From Colwellia sp. (lineage in GTDB: Bacteria > Pseudomonadota > Gammaproteobacteria > Enterobacterales > Alteromonadaceae), in the NCBI GenBank assembly GCA_013215655.1, contig JABSOX010000012.1, positions 65,608 to 129,607 of the forward strand: a stretch of DNA of 64,000 bases. Reading direction: 5' to 3'. The notes under the pieces were generated by a model, which worked only from the letters and a program-made list of their open reading frames with translations, made no database searches and was not told the origin of the DNA. The translations under genes and the position numbers were made by a program. Every line of letters begins with the position of its first letter. Position 1 is the stretch's first letter. Positions 5,736 through 20,500 of this stretch are shown piece after piece.

Positions 5736-6044
5736 TCAAGCGCTTTGCATAACACATTGTTCAATACTTAAATTTTCAATGCTCAAATGCGGTTCTCCTT
5801 CAAACTTGATTTGTGATAACCCCAAACGCTGGCAAAGTTTCATGAAAGTAGAATAATCTTCTTGATTCAATTTTTTATCATCTTTGGTCATTAAACCATC
5901 GATGTAGACACTGTCACCATTTATACATAAGTTAGCGATAGCATTATAAGGTTCTCCGTAACTATCAACTCGAATCGCGCGAACACTTTTTAACTCAAAT
6001 ATCCAATCATCTACTTCTACATATCTTAATATAGTATCACTCAT
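5736..6044 (-). CDS. Conserved-looking small cytoplasmic protein, unknown
   Basis: The ORF track starts this frame at 6152, but the first 36 codons read through a terminator hairpin. The ATG at 6044 is preferred because AAGGA lies 8 bases before it. The resulting 102-residue protein (MSDTILRYVEVDDWIFELKS...) is soluble and acidic, with no signal peptide, cysteine cluster or known motif. I do not recognise the family. It is downstream of the EF-hand gene, with a terminator between them. Confidence 0.65.
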   Translation of the reverse strand: MSDTILRYVEVDDWIFELKSVRAIRVDSYGEPYNAIANLCINGDSVYIDGLMTKDDKKLNQEDYSTFMKLCQRLGLSQIKFEGEPHLSIENLSIEQCVMQSA

Positions 6045-6076
6045 GACAATGTCCTTAAGTTTGGGTTTATGTTTAC

Positions 6077-6118
6077 AAAAAAGGCCGATTGCAAAATAAT
6101 TTGGTTGGGGCAACCGGC
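6077..6118 (-). terminator. Rho-independent terminator after EF-hand gene
   Basis: On the minus strand GCCGGTTGC pairs with GCAATCGGC (9 bp with one G-U), followed by CTTTTTTG. It lies 40 bases past the stop of the EF-hand gene and inside the over-long ORF 5736-6152, which argues for the shorter start of that downstream gene. Confidence 0.75.
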
Positions 6119-6157: not shown

Positions 6158-6523
6158 TTATTTATTCAGTTTGATCTTATTAGTAAAAGCAACAAACTCT
6201 TGTTCACTAATATTATCGTCAGTATTAATATCTAATTTATTAAACGCGATATGTAAGGCTTGATTGTTACTTGCTTTGAGTTCGCTCTGACTTAATAAGC
6301 CATTATTGTCTGTATCAAATTGAGCAGTAAGTTGAGAAAATTTAATTTGCTTCTTCATTGGTTTATTAGCTTGTTTAGCTTTTTGCTTAGCGGCCTGTTT
6401 AGTGACGACAACATCCTTTACTTGCACTGTAGTAGCAATATCATCACTGGCACTCACCAGTAAGGTTGTAAAGGTGGCCGCAATAACAACCAGTGAAATT
6501 TTAGTTAATCTTAAATTATTCAT
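6158..6523 (-). CDS. Secreted EF-hand calcium-binding protein
   Basis: Small protein with an N-terminal signal peptide or anchor (about residues 1-26, hydrophobic run SLVVIAATFTTLLVSA), a lysine/alanine-rich linker and a pair of EF-hand loops near the C-terminus. The loops are DTDNNGLLSQSE and DINTDDNISEQE, both with the expected acidic positions 1, 3, 5 and 12. The ATG at 6523 is chosen over the track's 6529 because AAGGA is 6 bases before it but touches the earlier ATG. Location is probably periplasmic or outer-surface. Its promoter region carries a sigma-54-like element and two GlrR-like sites (listed separately), so it may be a target of the divergent GlrK/GlrR system. The molecular role is unknown. 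Confidence 0.85.
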   Translation of the reverse strand: MNNLRLTKISLVVIAATFTTLLVSASDDIATTVQVKDVVVTKQAAKQKAKQANKPMKKQIKFSQLTAQFDTDNNGLLSQSELKASNNQALHIAFNKLDINTDDNISEQEFVAFTNKIKLNK

Positions 6524-6576
6524 ATCCATTCCTTTTCTTAATTTGTTTTTGGTTTTTTGATGTTCAACTCAGGTGT

Positions 6577-6592
6577 TGCACAAGCCATACCA
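6577..6592 (-). promoter_or_regulatory. Sigma-54-type promoter toward EF-hand gene
   Basis: The minus strand reads TGGTATGGCTTGTGCA. It keeps the GG-N10-GC spacing and matches the TGGCACG-N4-TTGCA consensus at all but three defined positions. The predicted start of transcription is near 6566, leaving a leader of about 43 bases. The nearest bEBP gene, glrR, is in the adjacent operon. Confidence 0.6.
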
Positions 6593-6644
6593 AAATGTAA
6601 CTTATTGATATTTATAAATAATATACAAACCACACCTTAACTCG

Positions 6645-6662
6645 TGTCGCCATTTAGCGACA
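6645..6662. promoter_or_regulatory. GlrR-like enhancer site 1 (TGTC-N10-GACA)
   Basis: TGTCGCCATTTAGCGACA is an inverted repeat with the TGTC-N10-GACA form known for E. coli GlrR at glmY/glmZ. Its centre is about 87 bases upstream of the start predicted from the sigma-54 element. It agrees with site 2 at 15 of 18 positions. Confidence 0.65.
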
Positions 6663-6765
6663 AGTATAAATAATTTGATTAATTAAAAAGAAAAAAACAT
6701 CGAGACTTTACATAAAAACACCTTAAAATCAAAGACTAACAAATAACAATAACGTTAAGTAAAAA

Positions 6766-6783
6766 TGTCGCCACTTTGAGACA
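6766..6783. promoter_or_regulatory. GlrR-like enhancer site 2 (TGTC-N10-GACA)
   Basis: TGTCGCCACTTTGAGACA repeats the TGTC-N10-GACA form with the same GCCA core as site 1. Centres of the two sites are 121 bases apart. It is also about 75 bases before the glrK start, so it could additionally affect the glrK operon. Confidence 0.6.
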
Positions 6784-6857: not shown

Positions 6858-8372
6858 GTGCAAAGCTCAAATTATATTACAAACGTCATTGTTAAGAGTT
6901 TTACAAAGATAGAAACAATATCTATAAAGAAGCTCACCCCTCTTGGCTTTGCTTTAGTTGCACTGCCGCTGGTGATTGCACTTATTTATGCGGCAATACA
7001 AGTTAATCAATTAGCTAAAAATAGTGAAGGTGCAATAAGGGATACCGCAAAAATCACTGAAAACATCGGGGAGTTAAGGGCGACTTTATCTAAAATGGAA
7101 AGATATGCCAGCCAATACATAGTGCTTAATGATCCTGAATTAATTAATAGTTACCTCCAGCAAGAACAAGTAATAATAAGCTCACTTGATAACAACTTAA
7201 TCACTCATCAGGATACTTTACTCAGTAAAAATAGCGATGAACTTAAACAAGCATTAATTACCTTACAGCAACAATTGTTACCCAACCCATCTAAAAAAAA
7301 TGCAGAACTGTCTTTAACCGAATTACAGCGTGAATTTAGCAATCTGGTTAACATCAGTCAAAAGATTACTCGCCGTAGTAATACCTTAATTTCGTTACAA
7401 GTAAACCACATCAGGGCTTCAGCAATAGCACTTAGTCAAACGATGTTAAATAGCTTGATGATCATTCCTGTCACTATAGCCATTGCGTTTTATTTTATCT
7501 TTATTATTGCTAAGCCACTTAAGAAATTAACGGCAAAAATCCAACAATTTGAACACGGAAATTTTGAACAAACCATCACACTACGCAGCTCCCCTGAAAT
7601 AAATGAAATAGTTGATGCGTTAGAAGTTATGCGTACACGCTTGCACGCGCTAGAATTACAAAAATCGAGTTTTATTCGACATATATCTCATGAATTAAAA
7701 ACCCCATTAGCAGCAATACGCGAAGGTACAGAATTACTGTATGACAACAGTGTTGGTGAATTAAATGATCAACAACAAGAAATCAGTCTCATTATCAGAA
7801 CCAGCGTTACACGTTTACAACGCCTTATTGAAGATTTGCTTAATTTCAATATTGTTTTAGATTCCACCAGCTTACAAGATTCCATCGCAATAAATGTGAA
7901 CGCTGTGCTTGAAAGTGTTTTGCTTGCTCAAAAACTTGATATTAAACGTAAACATCTTGTTATTAATAACTCACCCGTTGATATACAAGTGCAAAGTAAC
8001 GAAAAGCAGCTCAATGTCATCTTGGACAATCTCGTATCAAATGCAATCAAGTATTCACCGGACCACGGAGAAATCACCATTGATTGCAAATTAATAGGTG
8101 AACATTTAGCAATCAGTGTCATTGATCAAGGGTCAGGCATTGAAGTGACTCAACAAGAGCGAATATTTGATGCTTTTTATCAAGGGTCACCACCACAAGA
8201 TAGTCATATAAAAAGCAGTGGCTTAGGCTTAACCATCGTAAAGGAATTATTGATGAGAATTAATGGCACAATACAAATACAAAGTAAGACATCTGAAATT
8301 TCTGGTACACAAGTAACCATCATTCTACCTAAAGCACAGTACATAAATAAACAACAGACAGGAAAAAGATAA
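6858..8372 (+). CDS. glrK: Sensor histidine kinase GlrK (QseE)-like
   Basis: Membrane sensor kinase, 504 residues. Order of parts: first membrane helix (about 28-47), periplasmic helical sensor region, second helix (about 198-218), HAMP (about 214-268), HisKA with phospho-accepting H278 in IRHISHELKTPL, and HATPase_c with the N box LVSNAIKYSP, DQGSGI and SSGLGLTIV. In E. coli GlrK phosphorylates GlrR, which activates sigma-54 promoters. Identity rests on the three-gene order kinase, lipoprotein, sigma-54 regulator, the same as glrK-qseG-glrR. The only open start is GTG 6858, so the start is less secure. The stop overlaps the next start (TAATG). Confidence 0.85.
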   Translation: MQSSNYITNVIVKSFTKIETISIKKLTPLGFALVALPLVIALIYAAIQVNQLAKNSEGAIRDTAKITENIGELRATLSKMERYASQYIVLNDPELINSYLQQEQVIISSLDNNLITHQDTLLSKNSDELKQALITLQQQLLPNPSKKNAELSLTELQREFSNLVNISQKITRRSNTLISLQVNHIRASAIALSQTMLNSLMIIPVTIAIAFYFIFIIAKPLKKLTAKIQQFEHGNFEQTITLRSSPEINEIVDALEVMRTRLHALELQKSSFIRHISHELKTPLAAIREGTELLYDNSVGELNDQQQEISLIIRTSVTRLQRLIEDLLNFNIVLDSTSLQDSIAINVNAVLESVLLAQKLDIKRKHLVINNSPVDIQVQSNEKQLNVILDNLVSNAIKYSPDHGEITIDCKLIGEHLAISVIDQGSGIEVTQQERIFDAFYQGSPPQDSHIKSSGLGLTIVKELLMRINGTIQIQSKTSEISGTQVTIILPKAQYINKQQTGKR

Positions 8373-8926
8373 TGAGTACTTTAATCATTGTTAGAAAAAC
8401 CATCTTACATATCTCTTTGTTGATTTTTTTGTCACTCAATACTGGCTGCCAATTACTTAACCAAACAACAATGATAACAGCAAGCTACGGTCAATATTAT
8501 CTTTGGCTTAAAAGTCTCAATCTAGAAGAATTACAACAAGAAATTGTACAACAGAAATATAATCTAACGGAAATAAATAGCGATGCAGAGCTCTATTTAT
8601 TATTAATACATGCCTTGCCTAACTCACCTATTCATAACCCTTATACTGCCAAGGCTTTATTAAATGTTTTCCAATTGCAATATGTGAGCACCCGTTATAA
8701 TTCTGAGAATTTGGCATTTATTACTATGCTAAGAGATCAATTAAATGAACAATTACTGATCTTAGAAAAACTCAATAAGGCATCAAAAATCAACGAAGAA
8801 AATCAAATAATTCAAGCTTCACTACATAAAGAAAACGTTCAACTCCAACAAGACATAGAGCGATTAACCCAACAAATTATTCAACTCAAAAAAATAGAAC
8901 AAACCATTAATAATCACGGGCAATAG
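8372..8926 (+). CDS. qseG: QseG (YfhG)-like outer-membrane lipoprotein
   Basis: The 184-residue protein has a lipoprotein signal with lipobox SLNTGC, so it is lipid-anchored, most likely in the outer membrane. After a helical middle it ends in a glutamine/leucine-rich coiled coil (about residues 125-180). In enterobacteria QseG sits between qseE and qseF and interacts with the QseE/GlrK sensor to modulate its kinase activity. Sequence in this family is weakly conserved, so the call depends largely on gene order and topology. Its ATG overlaps the kinase stop, and the regulator begins 5 bases after it. Confidence 0.75.
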   Translation: MSTLIIVRKTILHISLLIFLSLNTGCQLLNQTTMITASYGQYYLWLKSLNLEELQQEIVQQKYNLTEINSDAELYLLLIHALPNSPIHNPYTAKALLNVFQLQYVSTRYNSENLAFITMLRDQLNEQLLILEKLNKASKINEENQIIQASLHKENVQLQQDIERLTQQIIQLKKIEQTINNHGQ

Positions 8927-8931
8927 TAATA

Positions 8932-10311
8932 ATGAAACAAACAGTAACTGAACAACGTAATGAAGTGATTAAAAATAAAATTTTAATTGTTGATGATGAT
9001 CCAAATTTATTACGTTTACTTGGTATTCGACTGTCTGCTGCTGGTTATGATGTTGAATCAGCTGCCAATGCCAAAATAGCTTTGGGAAAACTTGAAAGTT
9101 TTCATCCTCAATTGGTGGTCAGCGATCTAAAAATGGAAGGTATGGACGGTATGGCACTTTTTGAACAGATCAGGCAACGCCATGCAAATATGCCCGTTAT
9201 CATTATGACCGCCCACGGTACTATTCCTGATGCTATTAATGCCACTAAGCAAGGAGTATTTAGCTTTTTGACCAAGCCCTTTGAAAGCAAGGAACTGCTA
9301 GATACAGTTCAGCAAGCCATACGTTTACAGCCAAACGAAGAACGTCATGATAAAGAAGAAAATAGCTGGCGTGCAAAAATCATTAGTCGTAGTGCAGTCA
9401 TGGAGACTTTACTACAGCAAACTAAACAAGTTGCCAATAGTGATTTTAGTTTATTAATTCATAGCCAAAGTGGTACGGGTAAAGAGTTATTAGCAACGGC
9501 TATTCATCAAGCAAGTAAAAGACGTGATAAATCATTCACTGCAATTAATTGTGCTGCAATACCAGAGCAGTTACTAGAGTCTGAATTATTTGGTCACTGT
9601 AAAGGCGCTTTTACTGGCGCTGAAAAAAAACATATTGGCTTATTTCAAGCAAGTTGTGGTGGCACATTATTTCTTGATGAAATTGGCGATATGCCAATGA
9701 GCTTTCAAGTTAAATTATTAAGGGCGTTACAAGAAAAAGAAATAAGACCACTAGGTAGCACTCAAACAATTAAAGTTGATGTTCGGATCATTGCCGCCAC
9801 CCATAAAAATTTGCAACAAGCGATTATAGATAAAACCTTTCGTGAAGATCTTTATTATCGCTTAAATGTTGTTGAGCTTGAATTACCCCCACTATCTGAA
9901 CGCCGAGAAGATATTCCATTACTTGCCCAATATTTTTTGTCAAAAATTAACAAAAATTCAGAGAGTGCCATCAATGGATTTTCTCAGCAAGCGATGGAGT
10001 TATTAATCAGCGCGCCGTGGCCGGGAAATATTCGTCAATTACAAAACGTCGTAGAACAAAGTGTTGCGCTTTCTACAGAGTCATTAATAAGTGAAACACT
10101 GATCAAAAATGCGTTACGCGATAAAACGACTATTTTACCTTCGTTTCAACAGGCACGAGATAAATTTGAACGTGATTATTTAGCCAAACTATTAAGGATA
10201 ACAGCCGGTAATGTTTCGCAAGCAGCTCGTATTGCCCAGCGTAATCGCACTGAGTTTTACAAGCTGCTTAACCGCCATCATTTAACAGCGGAAGCTTTTC
10301 GTGATGACTAG
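8932..10311 (+). CDS. glrR: Sigma-54-dependent response regulator GlrR (QseF)
   Basis: NtrC-type activator of 459 residues. The receiver domain (about 17-130) has LIVDDD, phospho-acceptor D65 in VVSDLKMEG and the KPF lysine. The AAA+ domain (about 150-375) holds the Walker A segment SGTGKELL, ELFGHCKGAFTGAE with the GAFTGA loop that contacts sigma-54, and Walker B GGTLFLDEIGDM. A Fis-type HTH closes the protein (GNVSQAARIAQRNRTEFYKLL). It is the last gene of the glrK operon. Candidate binding sites of the GlrR type lie upstream of glrK, facing the EF-hand gene. Confidence 0.92.
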   Translation: MKQTVTEQRNEVIKNKILIVDDDPNLLRLLGIRLSAAGYDVESAANAKIALGKLESFHPQLVVSDLKMEGMDGMALFEQIRQRHANMPVIIMTAHGTIPDAINATKQGVFSFLTKPFESKELLDTVQQAIRLQPNEERHDKEENSWRAKIISRSAVMETLLQQTKQVANSDFSLLIHSQSGTGKELLATAIHQASKRRDKSFTAINCAAIPEQLLESELFGHCKGAFTGAEKKHIGLFQASCGGTLFLDEIGDMPMSFQVKLLRALQEKEIRPLGSTQTIKVDVRIIAATHKNLQQAIIDKTFREDLYYRLNVVELELPPLSERREDIPLLAQYFLSKINKNSESAINGFSQQAMELLISAPWPGNIRQLQNVVEQSVALSTESLISETLIKNALRDKTTILPSFQQARDKFERDYLAKLLRITAGNVSQAARIAQRNRTEFYKLLNRHHLTAEAFRDD

Positions 10312-16977: not shown

Positions 16978-17529
16978 TTGCATAGCAATAAAATAAAAAT
17001 AGCCGTTGCTTTACTGATGTTATTTTTCAGCTTTCAAAGTACATTTGCTGCAACCAATAATATTTCCGAAGCAAAAATTAAAGCAGCGTTAATTGTCAAT
17101 TTCATTAATTTTACTCGTTGGCCAAGTACTGCCTTTTTAGACAATCCCAAAAGCTATAAATTATGTATTGCCGGTGACGATCCATATTCCAAAATATTCG
17201 ATAATTACCCAGAGCTATCCGTTAAGGGAAAGAGCTTGCAACTGCTCCATCTCGATGAAAGTCCTTCACATCTAGTCGTGCAATCTTGTCATATTCTCAT
17301 TCTCCAATTTAAAAGAAATAACAAAATTCAGGCGCTGTTGAAAAAAAGTAACAACAAGCCTGTTTTAACGATTAGTGAATCAACGCTAGACGAAGCAATG
17401 ATCATCTTTGTCAAAAATAAGGGCAAAGTTGGCTTTGCTATTAATAGAACAGTCGCACAGAAATTAGGTATTGATTTTAGCTCAAAAATGCTGCGCCTAG
17501 CCACTAAAGTTGTAGAGAATAAAGTCTAA
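16978..17529 (+). CDS. YfiR-like (DUF4154) periplasmic protein
   Basis: Secreted protein of 183 residues with a signal peptide (cleavage near FAATN). The body matches the YfiR/DUF4154 pattern: IKAALIVNFINFTRWP at the start, YKLCIAGDDPY, then VKGKSLQLLHL and SCHILILQF, and a C-terminal NRTVAQKLGIDFSSKMLRLA. In Pseudomonas YfiR is a periplasmic repressor that holds the CHASE8-containing cyclase YfiN inactive. Here it is coupled (TAATG) to a hybrid kinase instead. The only in-frame start is TTG 16978, since a stop lies at 16966, so the true start is less certain. Confidence 0.85.
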   Translation: MHSNKIKIAVALLMLFFSFQSTFAATNNISEAKIKAALIVNFINFTRWPSTAFLDNPKSYKLCIAGDDPYSKIFDNYPELSVKGKSLQLLHLDESPSHLVVQSCHILILQFKRNNKIQALLKKSNNKPVLTISESTLDEAMIIFVKNKGKVGFAINRTVAQKLGIDFSSKMLRLATKVVENKV

Positions 17530-20500
17530 TGACCTTGCTCTCAACATCAAAATCTTGGCTAGCTAAGTGCTCAATTAGCACTAAGTTAAAGCTCATCATT
17601 ATGTTTGTAAGTACTATGGGAATCGTACTGGCAGGCACTAGTTTAGCGGTTTTTCAATGGTATGACATCAGAGCAAACATGGCAAATAAACTAGTTACCA
17701 TTACTCGGATCATTGCTGATAATACAACGTCTGCCGTCTCATTTGTAGATACTCAAGATGCCAATGAGGTTTTACTATCATTAAAAAGAAACTCCGCTAT
17801 TATTGGCGCAATAATATACGATAGTTCAGGCAAGATATTAGCTCACTATGCACGAGACAAAAATGCGTTAAGCACTAAAAGCTATAGTATTTTGAAATCG
17901 TTCAAAGAATATCGATTTATCAAGCAAACGCTCGAGGTTCAACAAAATATCTATTTAGATGATGTTATTATTGGTAAGGTATTGATATGCTCCGACTTAA
18001 GTGAACTCAATAACGCATTACTACGATTAACCTATCTTTTTTTAACCATATTGGTCGTTGTCGGCTTATTTGCATATTTTTTAACCTCAATTATGCAAAA
18101 AATTATTTCCCAGCCACTTCTATCTTTGGCAAAACTCACCCGGAAAATTTCTCAACAGAAAAACTATACCTTGCGTGCAAAAAAATCGAGTGACGATGAA
18201 TTAGGTGCTTTAGCTGATGATTTTAATGAAATGATCAGCCAAATAGAAAAACGAGATAAAGCCCTAACCGAAAGTGAACACCGCTTTCATATCCTCATAG
18301 AACAAGCCGCCGATGCAATATATCTATGTGACCTTGACGGCAACATACTACATGTAAATGCCAGTGCCACAAATTCTTTGGGATTTGATAAAGATGAATT
18401 ATTACAAATGTCACTTACCGACATAGATTTAATCTTTAAACAAGTACCGCCTAAAAATCATGACTGGCAAGATCTTAAACCTGAACATTCATATATTTCT
18501 TACAGCTCTTATCAACGAAAAAATGGCGAAGATTTTCCTGTTGAAATCCACTTCGGTGCTTTACAACTCGACAATCAATCGTTAGTGCTCTCATTTGTTC
18601 GTGACATAACAGAGAGAAAACAAGCTGAGCAAGATCTTAAAAAAGCCAATGATGAACTTGAAGATAAAGTCAGTGAACGTACTATTGAACTCATTGAATC
18701 AAATAAACATCTCAAACTTGCCAAAGATCAAGCAGAAACAGCCAGCCATGTAAAGTCAGAGTTTTTAGCTAACATGAGCCACGAAATAAGAACACCGATG
18801 AACGCGGTTATTGGTTTTACCGAATTACTACAACAGTCTGAACTAGATGAAAAACAACGCTCCTATATGTATTCCATTCAAGCAGGAGCAAAAGGTTTAA
18901 TGACCATTATTAATGATGTGCTCGACTTATCTAAACTTGAAGCAGGAAAAATAAGTCTCGAATATGAAATCGTTGATTTACATAGCTTTGTCACCAGTAT
19001 TAAACAAATATTCAGCCAAGCGATGCTTGATAAAGGGCTAGCGTTTGAAATATTAATAGATGATAACCTACCCGACGCTGTGATTTTTGACCAAACAAGA
19101 GTCAGGCAAATATTGGTAAATTTAATTGGCAATGCCATTAAATTTACTGAACAGGGTTTTATTCAGGTGAGGATTATTGCCGAAATACAATCCCCGGATA
19201 AACAAATCGACCTTGAAAGTTCCATAACTCTTTTATTTTCCGTTGAAGATAGCGGTATTGGTATCAGAAAAGACCAACAGGAGCTTATATTTGAACAGTT
19301 TACCCAACAAGAAGGACAAAGCGTTAAGCAGAATGGCGGTACAGGACTTGGTTTATCTATATGCCTAAATTTAGCCCATATCATGGATGGCAGCATAAAT
19401 TTAGTCAGTGACGAAGGTAAAGGTTCGTTATTTACGCTTTATTTGCACAATGTTGAAGTTGCCAGTACTTACGATGAAACTCGCCATGAGAACGACAAAA
19501 ATCATAAGCTCACATTCAATAGTGCAACCATTTTACTGGTCGATGATATTGCCGTTAATCGCCAGCTGGTCAAAGAACAATTCAGTGACTTTACGTTTTC
19601 ATTCATTGAAGCCGAAAATGGCGTACAAGCCATAGAGCTAACAAAAAAATTCAAACCTGCCTTAATCCTAATGGACATTAGAATGCCAGTAATGAACGGT
19701 ATCGATGCCACTATCAGGTTAAAGAAAGACCCACAAACTAATCATATTCCCATTATCGCCTTAACCGCTTCAATATTGATCACCAATGCTCAAGTAGAAC
19801 TACAACAACACTTCGATATGTTGCTACACAAGCCCATTAGACGCACAGAGATCATTAACGCTTTTAAACAATATTTACCCTACCAAGAAGTTTTAAATAA
19901 TACTGAGTTCAATAAAAAATCAGAGGGAAGCCCTTCTAGTGAAATACCAAATGACTTTAATCATCAAAAAGTTCTAGTTGTTGATGATTTTGAGCTCAAC
20001 AGAGAGCTGTTTATCGAGCAGTTTGAAGAAAGTAATCTGAAATTTATCCAAGCTGAAAATGGTAAACAAGCTATAGAAATTTGCTTAAGTGATAAACCTG
20101 ATGTTGTGTTCATGGATTTAAATATGCCAATAATGAGCGGCCAAGAAGCTTGCGAAAAATTAAAAAGACATGAACAAACCCAATCAATTCCTATCATTGC
20201 CATGACCGGGCATATTCTGGGGTCTGATGATGCTAAACAATTTGACCAAGTACTTACCAAGCCGATCAAAAAATCTGATTTTGAAGATGCATTAAACAAC
20301 GCTTTTTTAAAAAATAAAAAACGACAAGCTGAGCAGAATTTGGAAAAACAAAAATTATCGCCAACAGATCAAATAAAACTACTAAAAGAGCTTAATAGTA
20401 TTCTGGAAAGCTCATATCAGAAAGCATCCACCAGTGGCTTAATGGATGATATTGAAATATTTACAACAATGTTAGGTGAACTAAGTCTACAATTTAGTCA

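Follow-up and report, generated by a model that had tools for sequence, protein, structure and literature searches.

The cpxP gene of E. coli lies divergent from its own two-component operon and is controlled by that operon, and CpxR is not a sigma-54 activator. The product, CpxP, is a small periplasmic protein and an inhibitor of the kinase CpxA (PMC6075780). In the zraP-zraSR system of E. coli, the spacer between zraP and zraSR is bound by ZraR, and ZraP is described as the accessory protein in the periplasm (PMC8249747). The published direct targets of GlrR (QseF) are sRNA genes (PMC4585118) and rpoE (PMC6075780). Specifically, QseF uses TGTN12ACA sites and IHF assistance at glmY, while rpoE P2 of E. 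coli, the other published target and a protein-coding one, has similar upstream sites (PMC6075780). The natural stimulus of GlrK/QseE in E. coli is described as unknown (PMC6075780). The literature searched contains no paper that brings GlrR and an EF-hand protein together.

In the 64,000-nt stretch of Colwellia sp. DNA analysed here (the window, to which coordinates refer unless another locus or contig is named), the sequence between a small EF-hand gene and the glrK-qseG-glrR operon predicts a promoter of the glmY type, from which GlrR-dependent sigma-54 transcription of the EF-hand gene very probably makes a protein-coding transcript. In particular, a pattern search of the window for exact TGTC-N10-GACA returns two sites and no others, both between the divergent EF-hand ORF (minus strand) and the operon (plus strand): a promoter-proximal site, TGTCGCCATTTAGCGACA (6645-6662), and a promoter-distal site, TGTCGCCACTTTGAGACA (6766-6783), which lie 121 bases apart, are identical at 15 of 18 bases, and are assigned from the sequence and from relatives. 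The distal site is about 75 bases before glrK. A sigma-54 -24/-12 element, TGGTATGGCTTGTGCA (6577-6592, minus strand), starts 70 bases from the start of the proximal site and reads toward the EF-hand gene, and an IHF-like site, TATCAATAAGTTA (WATCAANNNNTTR; 6598-6610, minus strand), matches the consensus exactly and sits between enhancer and promoter. The consensus matrices for sigma-54 and IHF were the familiar ones. The first-pass annotation had described the two sites, their spacing and similarity, and a sigma-54 element aimed at a small secreted EF-hand gene; all of these are present where it had placed them, and the gene's product has a Pfam EF-hand_1 match of 30.9 bits against a cut-off of 25.4.

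The divergent operon comprises genes for a sensor kinase, a lipoprotein, and a sigma-54-dependent response regulator. The kinase gene glrK (qseE; 6858-8372, plus strand) encodes a protein with HisKA, HATPase_c, and HAMP domains that shares 29% identity with E. coli GlrK across 401 aa. The regulator gene glrR (qseF; 8932-10311, plus strand) encodes a protein 55% identical to E. coli GlrR, matched by the NCBIfam GlrR model at 1e-185 and 617.8 bits, under the model cut-off of 763, and its recognition segment, RNRTEFYKLL, is identical to that of E. coli GlrR; the genome thus contains a cognate GlrR with a conserved DNA-binding segment. These two assignments of the first-pass annotation stand. Its third, QseG, is weak by sequence: the similarity of the qseG-like product (8372-8926, plus strand) to E. 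coli QseG amounts to a BLAST E of 0.09 and 78% in HHalign, and its identity comes mainly from gene position and a lipobox.

The same promoter model applied to the E. coli K-12 control region finds three exact sites, spaced by 33 and 63 bases, then TGGCACAGTTACTGCA, then glmY; this recovery of the known glmY promoter supports the model. The two loci are alike in having TGT-N12-ACA sites (the upstream activating sites of GlrR-type promoters; two here, kept in relatives), a -24/-12 element, an IHF site (here predicted from sequence), a place beside glrK-qseG-glrR, and the same GlrR recognition segment. They differ in that E. coli has three co-directional sites leading to an sRNA, whereas here two sites lead to a predicted divergent protein-coding transcript. 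The rpoE P2 target differs in another way, in that it codes for a sigma factor and is at an unlinked locus, and its layout is absent from all exact sites inspected in this genome. Searches with the Rfam models of GlmY and GlmZ (RF00128 and RF00083) gave no match in this genome at E values up to 10, the same search being positive in E. coli; RapZ is present.

Single sites are near chance in this genome, in which pattern searches find 39 exact TGTC-N10-GACA sites and 33 matches to a reversed control pattern, but the arrangement of sites and sigma-54 element is far beyond it. Specifically, about 0.04 site pairs no more than 150 bases apart are expected by chance in the whole genome, and a compound pattern, in which a site is followed after 35-65 bases by TGG-N9-TGC, matches at two places in 5.56 Mb: the promoter described here and one in a chemoreceptor coding sequence, so that the architecture occurs once outside coding DNA. 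Inspection of 35 of the 39 exact sites revealed no further GlrR target, the window pair alone being intergenic and accompanied by a sigma-54-like element. A look-alike, TGTCGCCCTTTAGTGACA, on contig C84 falls inside a gene and was rejected as a further target. Across 150 genomes of the same family, a strict compound pattern has 38 matches (23 of this promoter, 1 of a relocated promoter described below, and 14 others), against 5 for the reversed control.

GlrR is present in 103 of those 150 genomes, and the regions upstream of glrK were collected from them, with a close clade of 39 loci in 14 genera. In 35 of the 39 loci, a site lies 55-115 bases ahead of an aligned sigma-54 element, with a divergent gene for an exported EF-hand protein downstream (0.01 in shuffled regions), and in 34 of those 35 a second site is present (0.00 in shuffled regions). 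The loci below threshold are four of the 39 (L071, L075, L088, and L093), together with the named locus L164. A scan of genome contigs, in which Colwellia were few and most matches were remote paralogues, added three loci from named Colwellia; these have the divergent EF-hand gene and the sites, and the unit of C. chukchiensis is also over threshold. The first-pass annotation had proposed checking conservation in relatives, the lack of which it took as refuting its reading, and scanning the genome for further sites and for glmY and glmZ; the outcome is that sites, spacing, sigma-54 element, and EF-hand target are kept across 14 genera, that the window pair stands alone, and that both sRNAs are absent here.

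The spacing of the elements in relatives is phased with the DNA helix. The start-to-start distance from proximal site to sigma-54 element, 70 bases here, falls into clusters of 68-71, 80-83, 91-93, and 102 bases, with a step of one DNA turn from each cluster to the next, and within each of the genera g1, g9, g16, and g63 some members are offset from others by about one turn. The site-to-site distance is mainly 121-123 bases, with others of 111, 133, and 141-142. Such repeated one-turn shifts inside genera are hard to explain without protein contact, although the uniform null used for this comparison ignores phylogeny. A perfect IHF consensus is common in the window (10 occurrences, 8.6 expected), and one occurrence alone is unremarkable; within the enhancer-promoter gap, however, the strict consensus is present in 14 of 54 loci against a shuffle mean of 0.36. 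A relaxed form, picked after the sequences had been seen, is present in 32 loci, including most of the close clade, at a constant distance of 18-19 bases ahead of the -24 element. On these elements, phosphorylated GlrR would bind both TGT-N12-ACA sites, which lie some 70 and 190 bases ahead of the -24 element; IHF would bend the AT-rich spacer between them and the promoter; and GlrR would remodel sigma-54 polymerase on TGGTATGGCTTGTGCA, resulting in transcription of the EF-hand gene and, at a lower level, of a second gene beyond a terminator hairpin.

The EF-hand gene occupies 6158-6529 (minus strand), with the second ATG, at 6523, favoured as the start by the N-termini of homologues and by an AAAGGA ribosome site. 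The protein has Pfam EF-hand_1 and EF-hand_6 matches above cut-off and a hydrophobic, signal-like N-terminus, and is predicted to be exported; its gene lies beside the GlrR operon and is predicted to be under GlrR control. It contains two canonical 12-residue calcium loops, DTDNNGLLSQSE and DINTDDNISEQE, with acidic or amide residues at positions 1, 3, and 5 and an acidic residue at position 12, conserved across loci. In the close clade, the first divergent gene encodes a small EF-hand protein in 41 of 41 loci, with two canonical loops in 40 of them; the homologues are mostly 27-43% identical to the window protein, and the calcium-ligand positions are conserved. Tandem copies of the gene are present at L064, L072, L077, L083, and L085 (two to four beside glrK, counting also L118). 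At L118, three copies persist although GlrR sites are undetectable.

The second gene of the pair (5736-6044, minus strand) encodes a 102-aa protein in which no signal peptide is seen, and which belongs to an unnamed family of proteins of about 110 aa that we term WIFE, after a DWIFE motif. Pfam, NCBIfam, and PHROGs contain no family to which WIFE belongs, and the PDB contains no sequence relative of it. Structures predicted from three or four sequences are of low confidence for both WIFE (pLDDT 55) and the EF-hand protein (pLDDT 48), and a fold search with the WIFE model returned only non-significant, acetyltransferase-like matches; we therefore claim no function. WIFE is present in 72 of the 150 genomes, and GlrR in 67 of these 72 against 36 of the 78 others (p = 2e-10, without correction for phylogeny); in an order-level sample, GlrR is present in 13 of 13 WIFE genomes. 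In family f9, WIFE directly follows the GlrR/sigma-54 unit, with sites 121-122 bases apart. Several genomes have WIFE at a distance from glrK, with GlrR sites and a sigma-54 element of its own: L283 has two exact sites with the element 68 bases on, L284 has two sites 120 bases apart with the element 72 bases on, and L280 and L282 have promoters like these. No such unit was found at WIFE paralogues or at the WIFE genes of GlrR-less genomes. The second WIFE gene of this genome, considered as a second target, has no sites and was rejected; it is one of four paralogues without GlrR sites (L273, on contig C1 of this genome, G000, at 17299-17598; L274; L275; and L292). A WIFE paralogue lies just upstream of a cysteine-desulfurase-like gene in several genomes.

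Between the two genes is an intrinsic terminator hairpin (6076-6118, minus strand) with a C-rich loop (GCCGGTTGC-CCCAACC...-GCAATCGGC-CTTTTTT), a terminator being present at this place in 27 of 29 scorable loci. In 16 aligned hairpins, 97% of stem positions are paired and six pairs have changed on both sides; double-change cells number 24, against 9.1 in shuffles, and sliding the alignment by one column lowers pairing to about 34%. The predicted GlrR output is an operon-like pair consisting of the EF-hand gene, the terminator hairpin, and then WIFE. Read in this way, the first-pass claim that the target is the EF-hand gene holds for that gene as part of a pair; in some lineages the target is only WIFE, and in some it is a small exported protein of another kind, unrelated to these.

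More distant family members, with GlrR about 55% identical, form a second clade with an EF-hand gene placed after the sites and before glrK, co-directional with the operon (31 of 50 loci), the position and orientation that glmY has in E. coli. A GlrR/sigma-54 unit is detectable in 24 of the 50 loci (0.27 in shuffles and 1 on the opposite strand); many of these read GT in place of GC at -12, and some are detected only with GT accepted, a choice made after the data were seen. The -12 part is often TTGT for TTGC (TGGCAC-N5-TTGTA), consistently across genomes of the co-directional clade (L108-L110, L113, L114, L116, L117, L304, L307, L310, and others).

The second clade bears on the question of which gene of the pair GlrR serves. 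WIFE is the sole GlrR-linked target in f9, retains its own unit when relocated, and shows stronger sequence conservation than the EF-hand protein, as would be expected if GlrR really served WIFE and the EF-hand gene were a replaceable passenger of the leader. We consider this unlikely, given that the glrK-side unit of the second clade has the EF-hand gene alone, with WIFE elsewhere under its own unit, that the close clade keeps the calcium ligands in 41 of 41 loci and amplifies the EF-hand gene in tandem in several, and that a terminator separates the two genes. The relocated WIFE units speak, in turn, against the sites serving mainly autoregulation of glrK-qseG-glrR with the EF-hand gene as a bystander. 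A regulator bound at the distal site could influence a glrK promoter; no sigma-54 element in the window reads toward glrK, however, and the phased series of proximal site, IHF-like site, and sigma-54 element faces the EF-hand gene, making such a role very unlikely as the main one.

Nor is another regulator probable. Bacteria have several sigma-54 activators, and the GlrR sites here are predicted, but they match E. coli GlrR sites and the recognition segment is identical; in addition, such sites adjoin glrR or occur in genomes with glrR and are absent from the WIFE promoters of GlrR-less genomes, leaving use by a different activator highly improbable. Shared ancestry of close strains without function would be a concern, the statistics not being phylogeny-corrected, had the background not diverged: the target proteins are mostly 27-43% identical, and the gap sequences differ strongly, yet the elements stay and insertions come as whole helical turns. 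Ancestry alone is contradicted already by that diverged background and is scarcely credible. GlrR-dependent transcription of the EF-hand gene, with WIFE downstream, is accordingly the reading adopted below.

By analogy of layout with ZraP and CpxP, the EF-hand protein may bind calcium in the periplasm and act there as an accessory to, or in feedback on, the GlrK-QseG envelope sensor, a role that we offer tentatively as the likeliest one but hold to be less probable than not. The likeness to zraP-zraSR lies in a sigma-54-type regulator, a spacer, and a divergent gene for a small metal-binding periplasmic protein, here predicted; the differences are that ZraP binds zinc, whereas the protein here has calcium-type EF-hands and, in Pfam, EF-hand-type matches only, with none to the ZraP or CpxP families. 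CpxP, likewise, is no EF-hand protein. The locus suggests that envelope calcium is tied to what the GlrK sensor reads or corrects, and it supplies, for marine bacteria, two named and testable candidate GlrR targets and thereby a handle on the purpose of a poorly understood sensor.

The hairpin may have a role beyond termination. Stem covariation is expected of a terminator, but the conserved loop (CYCCCARCC) is not accounted for by termination. A hairpin model searched against the whole genome has one strong site, the one after the EF-hand gene (E 2e-4; the next match is at 0.1), and in relatives it matches the equivalent place of other EF-hand loci and not WIFE loci that have no EF-hand gene. 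The hairpin is a possible 3'-end small RNA or attenuator. That the GlrR target transcript serves as EF-hand mRNA and also gives rise to a small RNA from its 3' end is a long shot; if it were so, a regulatory RNA output of GlrR would be common to enterobacteria (GlmY) and this marine lineage, by convergence or descent.

In Colwellia and its marine relatives, GlrR appears to turn on the EF-hand protein and WIFE, and not an sRNA as in E. coli. The first-pass annotation held that a calcium-binding protein had taken the place of glmY and that the GlrR regulon output differs in this lineage. The EF-hand gene does lie beside glrK, but divergently, whereas glmY is co-directional; and as the data do not order the outputs by ancestry, "differs" is safe and "replaced glmY" is not. 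Other products also occupy the slot: a single-pass membrane protein of 58-66 aa instead of the EF-hand protein at L108-L111, and small exported proteins, Lys/Glu-rich or acidic and unrelated to EF-hand proteins, on the divergent side at L098-L100, L104, L106, and L107. The target is likewise not an EF-hand gene at L101-L103, L105, and L121-L126, so the EF-hand protein is not indispensable to the GlrR circuit. The varied products beside glrK indicate an enhancer slot that is kept while its output changes: with one regulator, one enhancer code, and one neighbourhood, the output in sister lineages is variously an sRNA, WIFE, an exported EF-hand protein, or another small protein, exported or in the membrane, making the slot a clean comparative case of evolving regulon output. 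Deeper glrK-qseG-glrR loci (Nitrococcus, Hahella, Woeseiaceae, and others) are mostly without adjacent sites. At one betaproteobacterial glrK locus, that of Aromatoleum toluolicum (L175, 4686-4858), two GlrR-like sites lie 67 bases apart, and the sigma-54 element reads to an unrelated divergent gene.
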